Positions 21,880-30,721 of a stretch of 30,721 nucleotides of DNA are shown here, piece after piece. The translations under genes and the position numbers were made by a program. Source of the DNA: a virus. Within the stretch, counting starts at the first letter, position 1, and every line of letters begins with the position of its first letter. The stretch spans positions 1 through 30,721 of IMG/VR virus record IMGVR_UViG_3300033806_000025; one strand, written 5' to 3'. A model generated the notes under the pieces. That model made no database searches and had not been told where the DNA came from. It was given only the letters and a program-made list of their open reading frames with translations.

Positions 21880-22234
21880 GATGCGCGACTCCTGCCTGGT
21901 CAGCTCGCCAAGCAGGCTTGGCCGTCATGTCAGGAATAACTCCTATTACTGGCACTTTATACCGTCCTACTCTTGCCAGCCTATAACCACTGAACGGCCT
22001 ATAGTAACGCTCATCAAGCTGATTCTTGAGCGGTCTTCCCACGCCGCGTTCCGCCCTGATCGCCCGCAGCTTGTCACCCGTGTCCCGGCTATCATCGGCC
22101 CATTTCGCCTTCTTGATAAGGCGCGGCTTTGGCATGGCGCCAATGTTCCTAAGTCTAGCCCTATCTGTCTGCGCTTGTTCTCGCTGCGAGAACTCGTGCT
22201 TCCCATACCCCGTCATGACCAGCCGCATGCTCAT
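21872..22234 (-). CDS. Hypothetical late protein between TerL and portal, 120 aa
   Basis: The ATG at 22234 overlaps the TerL stop as ATGA, and the 3' end overlaps the portal start by 8 bases, so it is part of the coupled chain. The protein is basic and mixed in character (RARLRNIGAMPKPRLIKKAK, GYRLARVGRYKVPVIGVIPD). I see no membrane segment or known motif. Coding status is supported by the two overlaps and the absence of a better frame. The function is unknown. Confidence 0.6.
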   Translation of the reverse strand: MSMRLVMTGYGKHEFSQREQAQTDRARLRNIGAMPKPRLIKKAKWADDSRDTGDKLRAIRAERGVGRPLKNQLDERYYRPFSGYRLARVGRYKVPVIGVIPDMTAKPAWRADQAGVAHHG

Positions 22235-23598
22235 ATCCTCGTTTCGCCCGATCTATTGTAATGCGAATATTTGCCTTCAAGGTCAAACAGTTCCGAAGCC
22301 GTGCAGTCAGACCAGAAGCGCGGCTTAACATCTTTCGCAGCTACTTGCGGAGCGCGCCACACTTGGCCGATGATCTCGCCAGCGTCCGCAGCATGACTTG
22401 ACCAATCGTGCCTTGGTTTGCTACGGAATATCTTTTTGTCTTCGTCAAACTCGAATTGGTACTGCCGCAGAGCATCCAATCCTTGCTCACATTCCTGCTC
22501 ATCGAACCAGCAATATTCCAGCGTCTTGCGGAATGCTTCGATGGCGTTCTGCTGGTTCGTGGCTGGGACCACATACATCGTCACGCCCAGCGCCGCGGCC
22601 TGCTCCACGATAGATCGGCCGCCAGCGGCTAGGAGCTTATTCGCTGCGTCGTGTGGGACGTAGTGCTTGCCGATCTGCTTGCGGCCAATTCCGCGCTCAA
22701 GGCACCAATCATAGACCGCCTCGCAGTAGTGCCTGATGTCCTGGCCGCTGTTTTCGTAGTAACCGAGAATTCGAAGCTCCCGCGGCCCGGTGATCTGGAA
22801 AAACCAGATGGCGGTGGCGTCGTCGAAACCCAGATCCCACGCTGTGTGAACAGAAACATCGGGAAGCGGAGGCACACGCATGATGCGCCCGGTTTCCAGA
22901 GCTGCCGCAATCTGCTTGCCATAGACGGCGCCGGTAATGGCCGCCTCGAAGCTGCATTCCAGCTCCTGCGCATACTCGTTCTCGCTCATGAGTTGCCGGA
23001 GCGTGGCAAGCTCATCGCCCGGCAGGATTCCTGTTTCGCTCGCTTTCAGGATTTGCAGAAACCACTCCTGCGGCCTTGATCGCGCCAGCTTCACAAGCTC
23101 GCCAAGCAGGTTTGCCCATCCTTTTGGCGTGCCGGCCGCGTCCAGCCAGCCCTTGCGGTCGGCCAGCGCCGGTAGGATGACGGTGGTCAGAACGCTCTTC
23201 GGGAAGCCCTGCGCCTCGTCCAGGCTGATGCCGTCGAAATACAACCCGCGCATCCGCTCCGCATTTTCGGCGCCATAGAGCTTTATCGCCGCTTTGTTGT
23301 GCGGCATCGTGATCGAAAGCTCGCTCTCATTGACCTTGGCCCCGAGTTGGATTAGCGGATCGCAGTAATGCTTAAAGTATAGCCAGGCGATGTCCTTGGC
23401 CTGCACGTAATATGGCGCGACGTATCCGAAACGGGGATACGGCAGCGTGCATTCCACCGCAGCCCGGATGACGCGATTGACCCTGGCTACCGTCTTGCCA
23501 GCTCGACGGTGCGCCACAGTGACGCTGAAACGCTTCGTATCGGCGTGGTACGGTCGAAATACAGCGCGTGGAAGGTATGGGATGATCAGGTCAGGCAT
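22231..23598 (-). CDS. terL: Terminase large subunit
   Basis: This 455-aa protein starts at ATG 23598. The N-terminal ATPase has a Walker A-type loop VAHRRAGKT (residues 28-36, Lys35) and a Walker B ISLDE (124-128, Asp127 and catalytic Glu128), followed by a coupling segment GTPKGW. The C-terminal RNase H-like nuclease begins near VHTAWDLGFDDATAIWFFQ with Asp255 as a likely metal ligand, and has a later acidic residue in the RHDWSSHAADA region. It pumps DNA into the prohead through the portal and cuts concatemers. Length and order are normal. Confidence 0.93.
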   Translation of the reverse strand: MPDLIIPYLPRAVFRPYHADTKRFSVTVAHRRAGKTVARVNRVIRAAVECTLPYPRFGYVAPYYVQAKDIAWLYFKHYCDPLIQLGAKVNESELSITMPHNKAAIKLYGAENAERMRGLYFDGISLDEAQGFPKSVLTTVILPALADRKGWLDAAGTPKGWANLLGELVKLARSRPQEWFLQILKASETGILPGDELATLRQLMSENEYAQELECSFEAAITGAVYGKQIAAALETGRIMRVPPLPDVSVHTAWDLGFDDATAIWFFQITGPRELRILGYYENSGQDIRHYCEAVYDWCLERGIGRKQIGKHYVPHDAANKLLAAGGRSIVEQAAALGVTMYVVPATNQQNAIEAFRKTLEYCWFDEQECEQGLDALRQYQFEFDEDKKIFRSKPRHDWSSHAADAGEIIGQVWRAPQVAAKDVKPRFWSDCTASELFDLEGKYSHYNRSGETRI

Positions 23599-23601
23599 TG
23601 G

Positions 23602-23700
23602 TCACTGCAAGTAAAAATCAAGCACCGATGCAAGAAGAAGCCCAGCAAGAAGCGCCACGAATATACCGCCAATCATCCAGATTGGCCAATCGTCATGCAT
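23602..23700 (-). CDS. Membrane microprotein between TerS and TerL, 32 aa
   Basis: The ATG at 23700 lies inside the end of the TerS gene, overlapping it by 8 bases, with a strong GGGAGGG ribosome site about 6 bases upstream. The frame ends with TGA at 23604-23602, three bases before the TerL start. The peptide starts MHDDWPIWMIGGIF and continues VALLAGLLLASVL, then DFYLQ. This gives a short acidic head, one membrane segment of about 20 residues and a short polar tail. It fills a gap that would otherwise be empty. The function is unknown. Confidence 0.6.
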   Translation of the reverse strand: MHDDWPIWMIGGIFVALLAGLLLASVLDFYLQ

Positions 23701-24085
23701 TGCCGCCCTCCCATGCGATGGTAAGTTTGCCGGAGTTCTTCTGATTTACCTTATCGACAATGAGGCCATGAAGTTTTGCAAGTCCCATCGAAGCAGCGAC
23801 GGCAGCGCTCGTCTGTCCGAGCTTAATGGCATTCTCGCGATCTTCCTGCAGCATCCGAGTGATGGTTTCGATTGTGATTTCGAATTTCGACGCGAGAGAC
23901 TTCCGAATTTCTTCGATCCTTGAGGCCACCTTGACGTTTTTTAACAACACACACGCACTACGCCAAATCGAGGCGGGCTTCATCTTCCCGGTACTGTAGG
24001 CTCCCCGATAAGCAGCAGAAGCGTCTCCAAGCTCGATATAGAGTTGAGCGAATTTCTCCTGTTTTGGCGTCAATTGCCGCGCCAC
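23693..24085 (-). CDS. terS: Terminase small subunit
   Basis: This 130-aa protein starts at GTG 24085 (AAGGAG about 10 bases upstream); an in-frame stop lies just before it. The N-terminus LTPKQEKFAQLYIELGDASAAYRGAY is the hallmark of the Terminase_2 small-subunit family, given here as a landmark starting at residue 5 (LTPKQEKFAQLYIELG). A helix-turn-helix-like part (RSACVLLKNVKVASRIEEI) and an oligomerisation helix (AASMGLAKLHGL) follow. It recognises the packaging site on phage DNA and hands the end to TerL. The repeats upstream (24123-24770) are candidate targets. Confidence 0.9.
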   Translation of the reverse strand: MARQLTPKQEKFAQLYIELGDASAAYRGAYSTGKMKPASIWRSACVLLKNVKVASRIEEIRKSLASKFEITIETITRMLQEDRENAIKLGQTSAAVAASMGLAKLHGLIVDKVNQKNSGKLTIAWEGGNA

Positions 24086-24089
24086 TAAC

Positions 24090-24118
24090 TTGACTCCTTC
24101 GGATGAGGACTGTACGAG
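24090..24118 (+). promoter_or_regulatory. Possible promoter for a plus-strand small RNA
   Basis: TTGACT (24090-24095) is a good -35 box. A 17-base spacer is followed by TACGAG (24113-24118), a poor -10 box. No plus-strand gene follows, but a terminator hairpin ends at 24235, so a short non-coding transcript would result. Confidence 0.3.
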
Positions 24119-24122
24119 AGAT

Positions 24123-24154
24123 ATCGTTTACAACGAAAAGTGCATCGTCTACAA
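24123..24154. repeat. Paired 11-bp direct repeats upstream of terS
   Basis: ATCGTTTACAA (24123-24133) and ATCGTCTACAA (24144-24154) differ at one base and start 21 bp apart, two turns of the helix. They lie 40-70 bases upstream of the terS start. They suit a protein that binds two sites on one DNA face, such as a late activator or TerS. Confidence 0.6.
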
Positions 24155-24235
24155 TTGATTTGCAACGCGCCGCCGATAGCGTTGTCCCCCATCGAAAGCC
24201 ATCACTACCGCCCGTGAGTGATGGCTTTTTCGTTT
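24125..24235 (+). ncRNA. Candidate small non-coding RNA
   Basis: About 110 bases follow a possible promoter and end at a strong plus-strand terminator. Inside is a second stem-loop, CAACGC (24163-24168) with GCGTTG (24179-24184). There is no plausible plus-strand gene here. The RNA would be antisense to the leader of the terminase operon. Expression is unproven. Confidence 0.35.
24195..24235 (+). terminator. Intrinsic terminator, plus strand
   Basis: AAAGCCATCAC (24195-24205) and GTGATGGCTTT (24218-24228) form a perfect 11-bp stem with a 12-base loop. TTTTT and CGTTT follow on the plus strand. On the minus strand no T run follows, so it works for rightward transcripts although the neighbouring genes are leftward. 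Confidence 0.75.
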
Positions 24236-24341
24236 GTAAGTTAGGAGGCCTCTTTCGTGGGGCTTCTCGAACAAGGGAGAGAAACGACAAATCTGCCGTC
24301 GCGGCCTCCAGAGTATCAGCACCACCATTGAAGGCGGGTGT

Positions 24342-24656
24342 GTCACAGGCTTGTGACGGGGGGGGGGTTGTGACACCCCTAAGCCATTGGCGTAAAAGGC
24401 TGAATTTCGCTTTTCGCCGGGTGTCACAACCCTATGGCCACAAACTTTTTTAGAGCCGGAATTTCCCCCCTCACCGTTGATGCAGATGTCACTGTCACCG
24501 TCACTGCCCCATGAAGGGGGGGAATGCGGCTCTTGTATTATTTCTTCCATAGGGTTGTTACGGGTTGTGACAGTAGAAAAAGAGCTAGAGCCGCAAGGGT
24601 TTTCGGTGTCACAACCCCCTGTCACATCCCCCGTCACAACCTCCGTCACAACCCTG
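24342..24656. repeat. GTCACAACCCC iteron cluster
   Basis: The pentamer GTCAC occurs twelve times in either orientation between 24342 and 24649: 24342, 24353, 24370, 24423, 24488, 24494, 24500, 24567, 24608, 24621, 24633 and 24645. The last four form tandem units of 12-13 bp: GTCACAACCCCCT, GTCACATCCCCC, GTCACAACCTCC and GTCACAACCCTG. Such spacing is typical of initiator or TerS-type binding arrays. Confidence 0.75.
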
Positions 24657-24664
24657 TACTCAGG

Positions 24665-24770
24665 AATACCCCTGATGTCCGCATCCGTGGGTTTTCGGAA
24701 AATACCCCGGATATGCACATCATGGGGTTTTCGAAATACCCCGGATGTAGAGCAACAAATACCCATGATG
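24665..24770. repeat. CATCCGGGGTATTTC half-sites forming two palindromes
   Basis: Six half-sites (on the plus strand AATACCCCTGATG at 24665-24677, CATCCGTGGGTTTTC at 24682, AATACCCCGGAT at 24700, CATCATGGGGTTTTC at 24718, AAATACCCCGGATG ending 24747, AATACCCATGATG at 24758-24770) form two imperfect palindromes of about 30 bp with one single half-site on each side. Confidence 0.75.
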
Positions 24771-24868
24771 TGGAGGCACACAGTTATCTCACTAAAGAGG
24801 AATTCACTAAAAAGGATTATGCGCAGCAAGCCGCGCCGGTCGCGCAAGAGGCTTCGCCTGAGTTGCCG

Positions 24869-24988
24869 TTACAACCCCGCCCAGCGGTTTCCAAGACGGA
24901 GCGAAAGCCAGCGGGGCGGCTCTGTCGAAAAGTGGTTTGCAGGGGGAAGCTTCGGGCTGTTAGCCTGCATTCTTCGATGTTTTCTCAT
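24869..24988 (-). CDS. Possible small protein, 39 aa
   Basis: The ATG at 24988 overlaps the stop of the next upstream gene as ATGA, continuing the coupled chain, and the frame ends with TAA at 24871-24869. The peptide starts MRKHRRMQANSPKLPPANHF and ends GNRWAGL; it is basic and Pro/Trp-containing. The overlap favours a real gene. The short length and arginine-rich composition leave doubt. The function is unknown. Confidence 0.35.
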   Translation of the reverse strand: MRKHRRMQANSPKLPPANHFSTEPPRWLSLRLGNRWAGL

Positions 24989-25200
24989 CCTAGCTCGCAG
25001 ATGGCCTCAGATTTGACTCTGGGACGCTCAGGAAGCCATGTTTCGATGGTGGCAGCTACCCATGTACCGGCCATCTGTTTCGCGGCTGTAGCGCGCTCTA
25101 TCCGACGATTTGGAGGCGTGTCCTTAACGCGAGCCAGAGCTGTCTCCACCATCGCCCTGGTGATCTTCGATTGATGCATGGGTTGGCGGCGGTCAGTCAT
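24985..25200 (-). CDS. Hypothetical early protein, 71 aa
   Basis: The ATG at 25200 overlaps the upstream stop as ATGA. The protein begins MTDRRQPMHQSK and is helical and basic, with ARVKDTPPNRRIERATAAKQ followed by a GTWVAATIETWLPER segment. No motif is recognised. It is the last clear gene of the replication operon before the gene-poor region, the place where lambdoid phages keep late regulators. That position makes it a candidate, but nothing in its sequence identifies it as an antiterminator. Confidence 0.6.
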   Translation of the reverse strand: MTDRRQPMHQSKITRAMVETALARVKDTPPNRRIERATAAKQMAGTWVAATIETWLPERPRVKSEAICELG

Positions 25201-25382
25201 GACTGTTTATCCTTCGGTTTGCGAGGCGATTGCGGAGCGGGCGGAAGCTGCGGTTCTTGCGCCGGTTCACCCGGAACAATCCCAAGCTCAGCATCGACCG
25301 CAGCGAGATTCTGCTGAAATTGATCATTCGGCTTGCAGAAGCCACGGTTCGTTTGGATCGGGAAATAAGCTAAACATATCAT
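25197..25382 (-). CDS. Hypothetical early protein, 61 aa
   Basis: The ATG at 25382 follows AAAGGACC with acceptable spacing. The product starts MICLAYFPIQTNRGFCKPND and has a short helical middle (FQQNLAAVDAELGIV). It ends in a Pro/Gln-rich, then Lys-rich tail (PQLPPAPQSPRKPKDKQS). It resembles no named family. Its stop overlaps the next start (ATGA), supporting translation. It lies downstream of the lambda P-like gene after a 64-base gap. Confidence 0.55.
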   Translation of the reverse strand: MICLAYFPIQTNRGFCKPNDQFQQNLAAVDAELGIVPGEPAQEPQLPPAPQSPRKPKDKQS

Positions 25383-25446
25383 GTCATCAGGTCCTTTCAG
25401 GGTTAGTCATGGTGGCGGCTCGCAGCATGGCCTCGGCGTTCGATGG

Positions 25447-26292
25447 TCATGCTGCCTCCGCGATGCGGGTGAGACGGGCTTGCTTGGCGGCCATGGCGCG
25501 GGCCACGGGTTCGATGATCTTGGGAAACCGGCCGGCGAGCGCCCACTCTTCGCGCTGGGCAATTCGCTCGAATGCCGCTTTCCTGAGTTTGGCCGCGCGG
25601 TCGATGCCAGGAAGCTCCCGGTTCTCCCGGCAGTAATCATGCAGGGCTACGATCCAGCCTTCCTGTGCAGCTTGGCGCCCGAGGTCGCTCTGAATGAGCC
25701 GGTCAGCCTCTTCGATGCGTTCGGATGACCAAGGATCGCCGCCCATCTTGCGCGCGCCTTCGCCAGCCTCCTCGGTGAATGCCTTCTCGACAGCTTCCCG
25801 AGGCGTGTGCCCCTTGGACAGAAATCGGGCTGCCGCGATCAACCGCGTTTCGAGTTTCGCCATGGACAGGCCCGCATAGCGCTCCTTGACGATGGCCCAT
25901 ACGAATTTGAACTTCTCGGCGTTTTCGGTTTTCCCGCAGGCGAGATGGATTTTCCGTGTGAATGCGACCGTGGTCGCGATGCCGCCGTCCGGCCGACGCT
26001 CGACCCCTGCTGGCCCGGTATCCGGCGGCGGATCGCTTCGTTGCCGCTCCCAGGCCTCGGCATCCTTCGCGTCTTGGCAATACCGCAGGCACTCCGCGAC
26101 CTTCGGCAGCCAGGGGGTAAGATGGCCTCGCAGGATAGACCTGTAGGCGCGAGCAAGGACCGTGGGCGAAAACGCGCCTTCCTCGACCGCCTCTAGGTAA
26201 TCAGCGAAAAGCTCGTCCCTCTGGATGTTCTCATCCTGCGCTTGAGCCTTGAATTGACGCAACAACCCTTCGATGAATTCGATTGGCGTCAT
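25447..26292 (-). CDS. Putative replication protein, lambda P-like helicase loader
   Basis: This 281-aa protein starts at ATG 26292, overlapping the initiator stop as ATGA. Residues about 1-90 form a helical domain (FADYLEAVEEGAFSPTVLAR, then LTPWLPKVAECLRYCQ) that resembles the layout of lambda P, where a helical region leads to LPSPGQF-VAWCRE. The middle is a Pro/Arg-rich linker and the C-terminal half is helical (LETRLIAAARFLSKGHTP, REEWALAGRFPKIIEPVAR). No Walker A motif is present, so it is not a DnaC-type ATPase or helicase. The gene order after an O-like initiator supports a loader role recruiting the host helicase. The similarity is weak. Confidence 0.55.
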   Translation of the reverse strand: MTPIEFIEGLLRQFKAQAQDENIQRDELFADYLEAVEEGAFSPTVLARAYRSILRGHLTPWLPKVAECLRYCQDAKDAEAWERQRSDPPPDTGPAGVERRPDGGIATTVAFTRKIHLACGKTENAEKFKFVWAIVKERYAGLSMAKLETRLIAAARFLSKGHTPREAVEKAFTEEAGEGARKMGGDPWSSERIEEADRLIQSDLGRQAAQEGWIVALHDYCRENRELPGIDRAAKLRKAAFERIAQREEWALAGRFPKIIEPVARAMAAKQARLTRIAEAA

Positions 26293-27359
26293 GATTGAAG
26301 TTCCTTTTGGCGAGCCTCTCGTCTGCGTTGAACTATCGCTTCAGCGCGTTGAGCGCGGGTAAGGGGGGGATCGGCGCCGTTGCTGGCGGCGTGGCCGTTG
26401 GCTGCTTTCGGTACGGATGACGGTTGGCGCTCAGAAGCAGCCATGGCTTCGACAAGAGCCGTGTTCATGCATTTCGTGAGGTATCCGCTGAATCCGCTGA
26501 GGGTCGATGGACAGAGCTTCGTGCGATCCCGGTCATGAGCCCTTAGCTGCATATCGGCGAGAACTGTGCGAAGGCAGCGGAGAACAACCTCGGGAGGGTA
26601 GGACTTCGCCAAGCCAGAGAAACGGCTTGCCAAGTTGGCATCGGCATCGCGCTTGGGCATGACTGGGACGCCAGCCACCGCAAGGTACCGAGGATCACAG
26701 CTGAAGGCGTTCATGACTTCGAAGTGGAGGGCTGCGTCTTCTGGGCTCAGGTTGCCGTTTCCAGAATCCACAACTGCCTTATTATGATTATTATCTTCCA
26801 TAGTTCCATTTTGGGGGGTCACGGTGACCCCCCCTTTTGGTCGCGTTTGACCCCCTCCCAGGGGGCTACCGTGACCCCCTGGGGAGGGGGCTACCGTGAC
26901 CCCCTCCCCCCTATCTATTTTTCTGAGGATCGATAGGACCGGGTTTTCCAAGGTGTAACGGTTGAAGCCTGGGCCCCCATCGGCAACTACAGTCGGTTTT
27001 ACGGACAGGCAGCCTTTCTCTTCGAGTTTACTTCTGACGCGCTTCCATCGCCGCTCATCGATGTACATCAGGGCGGCTATTTCCTCTCTGCTCGCCACAA
27101 TGCCCTTCCCTTCGCCGTCGCCCAAACGGCTAAGGACGTACAGTTTTTTGAATTCATCGCCGGTCAGGTCCGGCAGCAGCGATGCGGCATTGAGGTTTCT
27201 CACGACAGGCGGATATTGCGAGCCAGTCCATTTCCGTAGATAGTCCGAGCGAATTTGCCCTGACCTCGTCTCCCGCGAAAAAGCAGCTAGCCGCTTGGCT
27301 TCAAGCAATTCCTTGGCGGTCCGCTCGATGTCGCCTTGCCGTTCTACCGGCCCATGCAT
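26289..27359 (-). CDS. Replication initiator, lambda O-like, with iterons in the linker
   Basis: The ATG at 27359 is chosen (AGAGG about 9 bases upstream, 356 aa); ATG 27392 is possible, and the TTG 27467 opening overlaps a terminator hairpin. Residues about 69-139 form a winged helix (LTGDEFKKLYVLSRLGDGEG, EEIAALMYIDERRWKRVRSK, then a wing with GFNRYTL), like phage replication-initiator DNA-binding domains. Residues about 151-200 are a Gly/Pro/Asn-rich linker whose DNA holds repeats and an AT-rich stretch. The rest is a helical C-terminal domain (YPPEVVLRCLRTVLADMQLR) and a basic tail. It would bind its own gene to open the origin and recruit the P-like protein. Confidence 0.7.
   Translation of the reverse strand: MHGPVERQGDIERTAKELLEAKRLAAFSRETRSGQIRSDYLRKWTGSQYPPVVRNLNAASLLPDLTGDEFKKLYVLSRLGDGEGKGIVASREEIAALMYIDERRWKRVRSKLEEKGCLSVKPTVVADGGPGFNRYTLENPVLSILRKIDRGEGVTVAPSPGGHGSPLGGGQTRPKGGVTVTPQNGTMEDNNHNKAVVDSGNGNLSPEDAALHFEVMNAFSCDPRYLAVAGVPVMPKRDADANLASRFSGLAKSYPPEVVLRCLRTVLADMQLRAHDRDRTKLCPSTLSGFSGYLTKCMNTALVEAMAASERQPSSVPKAANGHAASNGADPPLTRAQRAEAIVQRRREARQKELQS
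26778..26925. repeat. Candidate replication origin: GTGACCCCC repeats beside AT-rich DNA
   Basis: The unit GGGGGCTACCGTGACCCCCT occurs exactly at 26861-26880 and 26886-26905 (25-bp period). A third related site at 26814-26834 is a palindrome with core GGGGTCACGGTGACCCC, and TTTGACCCCCT lies at 26847-26856. An AT-rich stretch (TTATTATGATTATTATC, 26780-26796) flanks one side and CTATCTATTTTTC (26911-26923) the other. The arrangement is like lambda ori inside gene O. Confidence 0.65.
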
Positions 27360-27392
27360 GGCGGCCGCCTCTGTGGATTGTGCATGTTCCAT

Positions 27393-27421
27393 TTGCGGAC
27401 ACGCGGGGAATCGGTTAATGT
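27393..27421 (+). promoter_or_regulatory. Candidate promoter for an OOP-like antisense RNA
   Basis: TTGCGG (27393-27398), a 17-base spacer, then TAATGT (27416-27421). The same -10 sequence and spacing occur in the candidate cro promoter. It reads rightwards, against the initiator gene, towards the terminator at 27466-27502. Confidence 0.4.
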
Positions 27422-27427
27422 GCTCAC

Positions 27428-27500
27428 GTGCATATTTCCTTCGTGGTTGCGTGCGATGTGAATCCAAGCCCTTGACGTTCCCGCGTCAGGGGCTTTTTGT
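27428..27500 (+). ncRNA. Candidate OOP-like small antisense RNA, about 70 nt
   Basis: The predicted start is 7 bases after the -10 box at 27421, and the predicted end is the T run at 27494-27498. The RNA would be about 70 nt and antisense to the leader between the 97-aa gene and the initiator gene. Lambda OOP RNA has about the same length, direction and place relative to O. Expression is inferred only. Confidence 0.4.
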
Positions 27501-28993: not shown

Positions 28994-29022
28994 ACATTAT
29001 TCCGATTGGGAATAAAAGGCAA
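28994..29022 (-). promoter_or_regulatory. Leftward early promoter for the Cro-like operon
   Basis: On the minus strand TTGCCT (29022-29017), 17 bases, then TAATGT (28999-28994). Operator 1 lies between the boxes and touches the -10 box, so repressor binding would block polymerase. The start site is expected near 28987, at the Cro ATG. Confidence 0.5.
28997..29015. promoter_or_regulatory. Operator 1, between cro-like and repressor genes
   Basis: TTATTCCGATTGGGAATAA is a 19-bp inverted repeat with perfect 7-base arms TTATTCC and GGAATAA. It overlaps the leftward promoter. A weak rightward promoter for the repressor (TTGGGA at 29006, TTAATT at 29029) also overlaps it, which would allow autoregulation. 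Confidence 0.75.
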
Positions 29023-29057
29023 GGAGCGTTAATTCCGTGAGGAGTAAGGATCATTCC

Positions 29058-29744
29058 ATGGCCGCGGAGTACGGTGCGGCTATGGCGAGAGAATTAGAAA
29101 TCCTTCGGCAATGGCTGGAGAATGGTCTTAAGAAGCGCGGCAAGACGCAGGCCGCGCTTGGGATAAGGTTGAATTGTAAACAATCAACCGTCTCGAAGAT
29201 GGCATCCGGCATGAAGCCAATCCGGATCGATCAGCTTCCCCTAATCGCCGCCTATATAGAGGAACCAATCCCCGAGCAGTTCTTGATACAACTTGGTACG
29301 AAGTCTAGTGCTGGCGCAGAATCAGTTTTCCTTGTAGGAAAAATTGATTCTTTAAGCTGGAGGTTAGCTGTGGGGCAGCTGCCGGTAAAAACATACATTC
29401 CGAAATATCCGGAAGAACCATATGTTTTTATAAAACAAGAAGCTTTTCAAGTTGAGGGCGATTCCGGCGAGCCTTATGCGAGGCACGGAGAATTTGTGCT
29501 CTCGGTCGATTATGATGAGGCGGGGCTGCTAGCACAGGCTGATGACATTGTTGTGACTATCGAAAAGCGCGACTTTGACGGGGTTCCATTCGTTCGCAGC
29601 AGACTGCGGAGGGTCGTCCAGAGAGGCCGGGATTTTATTCTCATCCCCCTGTCTGGCCCGGCAGAAGCCACCCCTATTGACGCAGTGACCATCCGCTATG
29701 TGATCGGAAAAGCGCTCTATAACGCGCGGCATCCGCATCGCTAA
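29058..29744 (+). CDS. CI-like phage repressor, HTH plus S24-like domain
   Basis: The ATG at 29058 is chosen because AAGGA lies 7 bases upstream; GTG 29037 would also read. The product is 228 aa. Residues about 14-58 form a helix-turn-helix (GKTQAALGIRLNCKQSTVSK). Residues about 118-225 match the LexA/CI C-terminal fold, with VEGDSGEPYARHGEFVLSVD holding the usual Ser (Ser136), and a C-terminal strand FILIPLS. The place of the catalytic Lys appears to hold Arg (PFVRSRLRRV, 177-186), and the usual Met after GDS is Gly. A possible Ala-Gly cleavage pair is at 85-86. It should bind the three TTATTCC operators and maintain lysogeny. Confidence 0.85.
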   Translation: MAAEYGAAMARELEILRQWLENGLKKRGKTQAALGIRLNCKQSTVSKMASGMKPIRIDQLPLIAAYIEEPIPEQFLIQLGTKSSAGAESVFLVGKIDSLSWRLAVGQLPVKTYIPKYPEEPYVFIKQEAFQVEGDSGEPYARHGEFVLSVDYDEAGLLAQADDIVVTIEKRDFDGVPFVRSRLRRVVQRGRDFILIPLSGPAEATPIDAVTIRYVIGKALYNARHPHR

Positions 29745-29747
29745 AAA

Positions 29748-29766
29748 TTATTCCGATTTCGAATAA
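29748..29766. promoter_or_regulatory. Operator 2, downstream of the repressor gene
   Basis: TTATTCCGATTTCGAATAA has arms TTATTCC and CGAATAA, one base from a perfect inverted repeat. It starts 3 bases after the repressor stop and lies just upstream of the -35 box of the rightward promoter. Confidence 0.75.
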
Positions 29767-29773
29767 TTATCGC

Positions 29774-29802
29774 TTGTGCAAAATTCCGATTTGGAATAAT
29801 AT
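29774..29802 (+). promoter_or_regulatory. Rightward early promoter
   Basis: TTGTGC (29774-29779), a 17-base spacer, then TAATAT (29797-29802), four of six bases of the consensus -10. Operator 3 sits in the spacer. Transcription would start near 29809 and run through the stem-loop leader into the small genes from 29910. Confidence 0.65.
29781..29799. promoter_or_regulatory. Operator 3, inside the rightward promoter
   Basis: AAATTCCGATTTGGAATAA keeps the core ATTCCGATTTGGAAT as a perfect inverted repeat. Its centre is 33 bp from that of operator 2, about three helix turns, which would favour cooperative binding of repressor dimers on one DNA face. Confidence 0.75.
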
Positions 29803-30244: not shown

Positions 30245-30721
30245 ATGTCAGAACAACTCTCTATTTCAGAGCGAGTAAAACGCGCGGTCGAAACAGGGAA
30301 ATGGATTATCCGCGCCGATAATGACGGCGTTTCTCCCTTTTATGACGCTAAAGGCTTTAAATGGTCTCTGCTTGGAGAATGGACGGAAGCTCAGGACTTT
30401 AACGAAAAACGGAAATGCGGCGGCGGGCTGCATGGACAGGACCGGAACTATAGCGGTTCCATCATGGGAAGCCGCCTTGTGTTCTGCGAGACGGAAGGCG
30501 AGCACATCGCTATTGGTGATAAGGTTAAAGTTAGGCGCGCTGCGATTTTGCTGATTAACCAGCTTCCCGAAGGCCTCACCGTCGGGGGCGGCCTCGACCT
30601 CAGAGGGACGCAGATCGCGGCGCTTCCCGAAGGCCTCACCGTCGGGGGCGGCCTCGACCTCAGCGGGACGCAGATCGCGGCGCTTCCCGAAGGCCTCACC
30701 GTCGGCGGCGACCTCTACCTC
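30245..30721 (+). CDS. Partial leucine-rich-repeat-like protein
   Basis: The ATG at 30245 follows GAGGAAA, and the frame is open to the window edge (159 codons seen). Residues 1-106 form a non-repeat domain (WIIRADNDGVSPFYDAKGF, later KRKCGGGLHGQDRNYSG and LVFCETEGEHIAI, then AAILLIN). From residue 107 the sequence is tandem 20-residue units LPEGLTVGGGLDLRGTQIAA. This LPxGLxVxGxLxL form is a short solenoid repeat found in phage and bacterial proteins. The N-terminal part recalls phage domains with a GLHG motif. The target or partner is unknown. The C-terminus lies outside the window. Confidence 0.75.
   Translation, partial: MSEQLSISERVKRAVETGKWIIRADNDGVSPFYDAKGFKWSLLGEWTEAQDFNEKRKCGGGLHGQDRNYSGSIMGSRLVFCETEGEHIAIGDKVKVRRAAILLINQLPEGLTVGGGLDLRGTQIAALPEGLTVGGGLDLSGTQIAALPEGLTVGGDLYL
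30563..30721 (+). repeat. 60-bp tandem repeats, near-identical copies
   Basis: Copies start at 30563, 30623 and 30683. Copies 1 and 2 differ at one base of 60 (AGAGGG against AGCGGG). Copy 3 is cut by the window edge and has three changes in 39 bases. Such identity at DNA level indicates recent expansion. Confidence 0.9.

Follow-up and report, generated by a model that had tools for sequence, protein, structure and literature searches.

Why would a temperate phage keep a dense cluster of short repeats between its replication genes and its terminase genes? We addressed this question in a linear fragment of 30,721 bases from an IMG/VR virus record, which was analyzed at its full length and is hereafter called the window. 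The phage looks temperate and short-tailed (a podovirus), judging from its portal, which matches phrog_12082, from the kinship of its TerL, which is 53 % identical to the TerL of Rhodoferax phage P26218, and from its repressor gene. Between 28.7 kb and 3.7 kb, the minus strand encodes most of the genes, arranged as O-like gene, P-like gene, a small ORF, a non-coding interval, terS, terL, portal and more late genes (Table 1). At the right end of the record, tandem repeats encode LPEGLTVGGGLDLRGTQIAA units (30560-30721).

Table 1. Mapped features of the window discussed in the text.
Feature	Position	Strand	Basis or remark
Terminase large subunit, TerL	22231..23598	-	phrog_2472 E 3e-32 (unknown function); phrog_2 terminase large subunit E 1e-28
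Terminase small subunit, TerS (Terminase_2)	23693..24085	-	PF03592 E 5e-10; phrog_51 E 2e-17
Non-coding interval, replication module to terS	24097..24984	.	888 bp; no Pfam match, no coding signature in any frame, no Rfam match
GTCAC array: 12 words in either orientation (consensus GTCACAACCCYS), proposed as origin iterons bound by an initiator	24342..24656	.	
Four tandem 12-13 bp iterons GTCACAACCCCC	24608..24656	+	
GAAATACCCCGGATG / CATCCGGGGTATTTC half-sites, six in total: two inverted pairs, two flanking halves	24663..24770	.	
P-like partner gene	25447..26292	-	matches at its C-terminus (63 % over 41 aa) the gene after the O-like gene in L190
O-like replication initiator, winged-helix region	26289..27467	-	phrog_270 E 7e-4; phrog_678 O-like E 1e-3
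In-gene iterons AGGGGGTCACGGTAGCCCCCT, four, one degenerate, encoding the O-like linker; proposed lambda-type ori	26813..26905	-	sequence; like arrangement in L190 and L089
Repressor gene	29037-29744		

The sequence-only reading had described the region before terS as gene-poor, and had named a coding gene across the repeats as one of the results that would speak against its interpretation. The ORFs across the interval have no Pfam match, and their codon-usage scores range from -0.35 to -0.48, compared with -0.12 to +0.47 for the genes of the window and -0.54 to +0.03 for antisense ORFs. A coding gene across the repeats was rejected on these two grounds, in agreement with the earlier description, and a structured RNA was rejected because an Rfam search of the interval gave no match. 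On the plus strand at 24193-24236, a stem of 12 perfect base pairs that encloses a loop of 10 nt is followed by TTTTTCG (z -6.0), and a promoter-like TTTACA-17-TACAAT is found about 40 nt upstream of this stem-loop, at 24127-24155; the sequence makes it possible that the two specify a short plus-strand RNA just upstream of terS.

GTCAC or GTGAC occurs 12 times in the 308 bp between 24342 and 24649, exactly the number initially reported, out of a total of 57 in the whole window, while the largest 308-bp cluster never exceeded 5 (mean of 3.2) when the window was shuffled 300 times with a first-order Markov model. The four tandem iterons that had been described as closing this cluster were located as well, with GTCACAACCC copies at 24608, 24621, 24633 and 24645 that are 83-100 % alike, and extra copies were detected at 24423 and, in degenerate form, at 24868. 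One short word in many copies and in both orientations within non-coding DNA is a feature of iteron-type origins that the window displays. Such origins also have an AT-rich melting region enclosed by two iteron sets; here, groups of repeats flank 24440-24556 on both sides, but AT content, measured in 60-bp steps, reaches at most 57 % within the array. Judging from position and anatomy, we interpret the window array as a putative initiator-binding origin element of the iteron type, with a probability of about 0.55.

A second repeat set adjoins the array. Using a threshold of 11/15 or better, half-sites of GAAATACCCCGGATG were found at 24663+, 24682-, 24699+, 24718-, 24733+ and 24756+, and the nine hits elsewhere in the 30 kb are scattered, for a chance expectation of 6.7. 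As had been proposed, the six half-sites form two palindromes plus flanking halves, the inverted pairs spanning 32 and 30 bp. No match to this CATCCGGGG set was seen among the probable repressor operators of the window, and no related repeat was found in the other phages searched; pairs of ATACCCCGGAT repeats gave five matches in IMG/VR, all to one unrelated tail-gene repeat, and the inverted form of the pair gave zero matches there. The GTCAC array and the CATCCGGGG set could possibly constitute a composite site for two proteins. The palindromic half-sites resemble operators, and the region separates the early genes (replication) from the late genes (from terS onward) on one strand. Both features would also be compatible with control of the late operon, the repeats then serving as operators through which an activator or a repressor turns on terS along with the structural genes. 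We find this improbable, given that no sigma-70-like promoter was found on the minus strand in the region, that about ten words in both orientations would be unusual for operators, and that the repressor gene of the window is flanked by palindromes of another kind. The latter, TATTCCGATT.GGAATAA, are located on both sides of the repressor gene (28998-29015, 29748-29763 and 29783-29800), are probably its operators and differ from the CATCCGGGG repeats; a CI-type operator reading was rejected by this comparison.

Could the array belong to the replication module that precedes it? The O-like gene matches phage O-like initiators weakly, and a single-sequence model of its protein, which at a mean pLDDT of 43 is reliable for secondary structure only, displays a helix-strand pattern. 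The P-like gene probably codes for a helicase loader, as its position suggests, and it resembles the gene that in locus L190 follows an O-like gene carrying in-gene iterons. In the window, the AGGGGGTCACGGTAGCCCCCT iterons encode about residues 186-219 of the O-like protein, which separate the winged-helix region from the C-terminal part. The block that they form contains GTGAC, is located inside the O-like gene upstream of the array, and is probably, on sequence grounds, a lambda-type origin. A lambda-type module has iterons within its initiator gene and a loader gene after it, an organization displayed by the O-like and P-like genes, with the loader role deduced from position; the GTCAC array lies outside this module. 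The window thus already has a plausible lambda-type origin in its O-like gene, and the array before terS is a separate element. The in-gene iterons GGGGGTCACGGTAGCCCCC and half-site GGGGGTCAC differ from the array word GTCACAACCC, and we dropped a sequence-based argument for binding of the array by the O-like protein, given the difference between GGGGGTCAC and GTCACAACCC.

No RepA, primase or SF3 helicase gene is located beside the array in the window, and tblastn with the RepA proteins of relatives returned nothing significant. In array-bearing relatives, an initiator-helicase gene lies directly upstream of the array, whereas the O-like and P-like genes occupy this place in the window. The cognate reader for GTCACAACCC stays putative because of this absence and of the different iterons in the O-like gene. 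The position of the array, which equals that of RepA-read origins in relatives, the lack of RepA in the window and the separate lambda-type ori inside the O-like gene would all suit a functionless vestige, namely the former origin of a RepA-type ancestor in which the O/P module took the place of the replicase. Such a vestige seems very doubtful here, as functionless non-coding repeats should diverge and the tandem copies have retained their 83-100 % likeness.

The window array does not lend itself to direct comparison, because no close relative was found. None was detected in IMG/VR by portal, O-like or P-like protein (L190 excepted), the O-like protein had no match in IMG/VR, in phages or in 398 genomes of one phylum, BLASTN of 23600-25600 against the phage collection gave no match, and the GTCACAACCC pair was absent from the same 398 genomes. 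A search with TerS recovered about 90 distant loci. Significant clusters within 1 kb upstream of terS were counted using a blind search for clustered 7-mers, and were found at 14 of 68 TerS loci versus 21 of 896 background tiles, the 14 loci not being independent since they include several of one marine family. The array word differs from group to group among these loci. The two nearest named phages by TerL, P26218 and ctfPj964, both carry an array between repA and terS, made of GCTAC-type words in the former and of ACTCACA in the latter. Dense short tandem repeats are also present upstream of terS in L016 (430-740) and L010 (15-300), with 19 copies of AGATTAG and AGATCAG, and the upstream word cluster of L100 is GGCATCA.

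Data mining with the window word itself located two close GTCACAACC words at 10 places in IMG/VR. Most of these GTCACAACCC-pair matches were discarded as protein-coding repeats or chance, and the two informative ones are located at replication genes. In L083 (58-317), 12 GTCACAA words, identical to the window word, are found at the 3′ end of a gene coding for a 1079-aa DnaG-type primase-helicase. In L089, four copies of the window word with a spacing of about 11 bp are found inside an O-like initiator gene, whose winged-helix region exhibits weak similarity to that of the window (34 % over 41 aa, E 0.1). The window word probably corresponds to origin iterons in both loci, and these two uses of it may be convergent.

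The marine family provides the opportunity to investigate which protein reads such arrays. Its replicase is a PrimPol-AAA_25 RepA, and 80 loci with RepA were collected. The frame of the array is conserved, and nearly all of its sites carry GGGTCA, GGTGCA or GGGGCA. RepA residue 647 predicts the word in all 51 distinct loci (among L111-L189), Q or K (the latter once) corresponding to GGGTCA, M to GGTGCA and R to GGGGCA, compared with a mean of 19.7 and a maximum of 33 in 20,000 shuffles. When words were called blindly, with no choice among the three, 55 of 57 calls agreed with residue 647, and the other two had picked unrelated clusters. A RepA tree from which the C-terminal part was excluded shows at least 17 switches of the word, and in phylogenetically independent pairs residue 647 switches along with it (9/9, 9/9 and 7/7). 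This residue carries all 1.50 bits of word information; the next RepA column, 643, located in the same helix, carries 0.92 of 1.50, and the best TerS column 0.45 of 1.51. The predicted C-terminal domain of RepA (mean pLDDT of 79) is a winged helix in which residues 643 and 647 start the third helix, the predicted recognition helix, and a Foldseek search with this domain gave weak matches, with many winged-helix domains (e.g. Cdt1, ORC, Fur) among the best. In the close pair L119/L121, the sequence from RepA to terS is mostly 80-99 % identical, yet the array word has changed. Because the words covary with RepA residue 647 and not with TerS, this comparison of sequences identifies the marine-family array as a predicted RepA-read origin, not a pac site. 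One recognition-helix residue would have been repeatedly switched together with about ten copies of the origin word, consistent with a natural recognition code for origin specificity.

The place directly upstream of terS is also that of lambda cosB and of some pac sites. The window array has the same location, and TerS binding typically uses repeated sites, which would be compatible with a cos or pac region where TerS, bound to the GTCAC repeats that precede its gene, directs TerL to cut close by. We nevertheless regard this interpretation as unlikely. In the relative family where it is testable, the words follow RepA rather than TerS, and the closest TerS relatives (L002-L007, 48-55 % identity) have no such array upstream of terS where the upstream sequence suffices. 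The ends of the P26218 record are uninformative on packaging because this genome was closed as a circle (PMC4657236).

A TerS-bound cos/pac region, a second origin and a late control region had all been put forward for this locus in the sequence-only reading. Our results favor an origin, since same-position arrays of relatives covary with the initiator and not with TerS, and disfavor TerS binding, given the absence of the array next to the closest TerS homologues. The origin role is best supported because the window array matches the origins of relatives in position, size, two-orientation layout and non-coding setting, and the term "second origin" fits because the upstream O-like gene has its own lambda-style in-gene iterons. 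The lack of an adjoining RepA, primase or SF3 helicase gene, the weak AT-rich core and the absence of the array in the closest TerS relatives argue against an origin. If the array works like the origins of relatives, as we infer, its short-word copies in both orientations would be bound cooperatively by a phage replication initiator, which would open the DNA and bring in the helicase at the boundary of the replication module with terS, the location of the origin in many relatives. The reader may be the O-like protein or a protein absent from the 30.7-kb fragment; alternatively, the origin may have been kept from a RepA-type ancestor beside the lambda-type ori in the O-like gene. A more elaborate arrangement, in which the lambda-type ori coexists with an iteron origin before terS that is joined to the second, palindromic repeat family and its other reader, is a tentative possibility that we rate as rather unlikely; if true, a single site could link replication to packaging or to the onset of late genes.

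If the window array is an origin, a temperate podovirus with a lambda-type ori would have a further origin, made of iterons read by an initiator, where its replication genes meet its packaging genes. In an uncultured phage family, the origin word can be predicted from one winged-helix residue of the replication initiator across at least 17 changes, and the joint change in specificity of an initiator and a multi-copy origin is now directly testable with natural protein and DNA variants. Two aspects appear to be new, namely an in-gene origin combined with a distinct array ahead of terS in the window, and the one-residue code for the origin word in the relatives; no report of either was found among papers listed by literature searches of an open-access library.

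Several known systems resemble parts of this organization. The origins of SaPI/PICI elements contain short iterons downstream of the Rep helicase, which reads them by its C-terminal domain (PMC7581432, PMC6092414). Likewise, the relatives carry words of either orientation immediately after the replication gene, and the C-terminal winged helix of RepA covaries with the word. However, these are phages and not satellites, the RepA of the relatives combines PrimPol and AAA_25 and is not a SaPI-type Rep, and the window is devoid of such a gene. The alpha protein of phage P4 is a fused primase-helicase acting at a cognate origin with short iterons (ori/crr). The pairing of a fused primase-helicase with a cognate short-iteron origin is common to both cases, the P4 ori being named in PMC6092414. 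The present array differs in being located before terS. Lambda-type in-gene origins are classical. In phage lambda, the iterons of ori-lambda are located inside the O gene (PMC7466680), and the window similarly has an O-like gene with four linker-coding in-gene iterons, followed by a P-like gene. Unlike ori-lambda, the GTCAC array is located 2 kb away, outside the O-like gene, and is built from another word.
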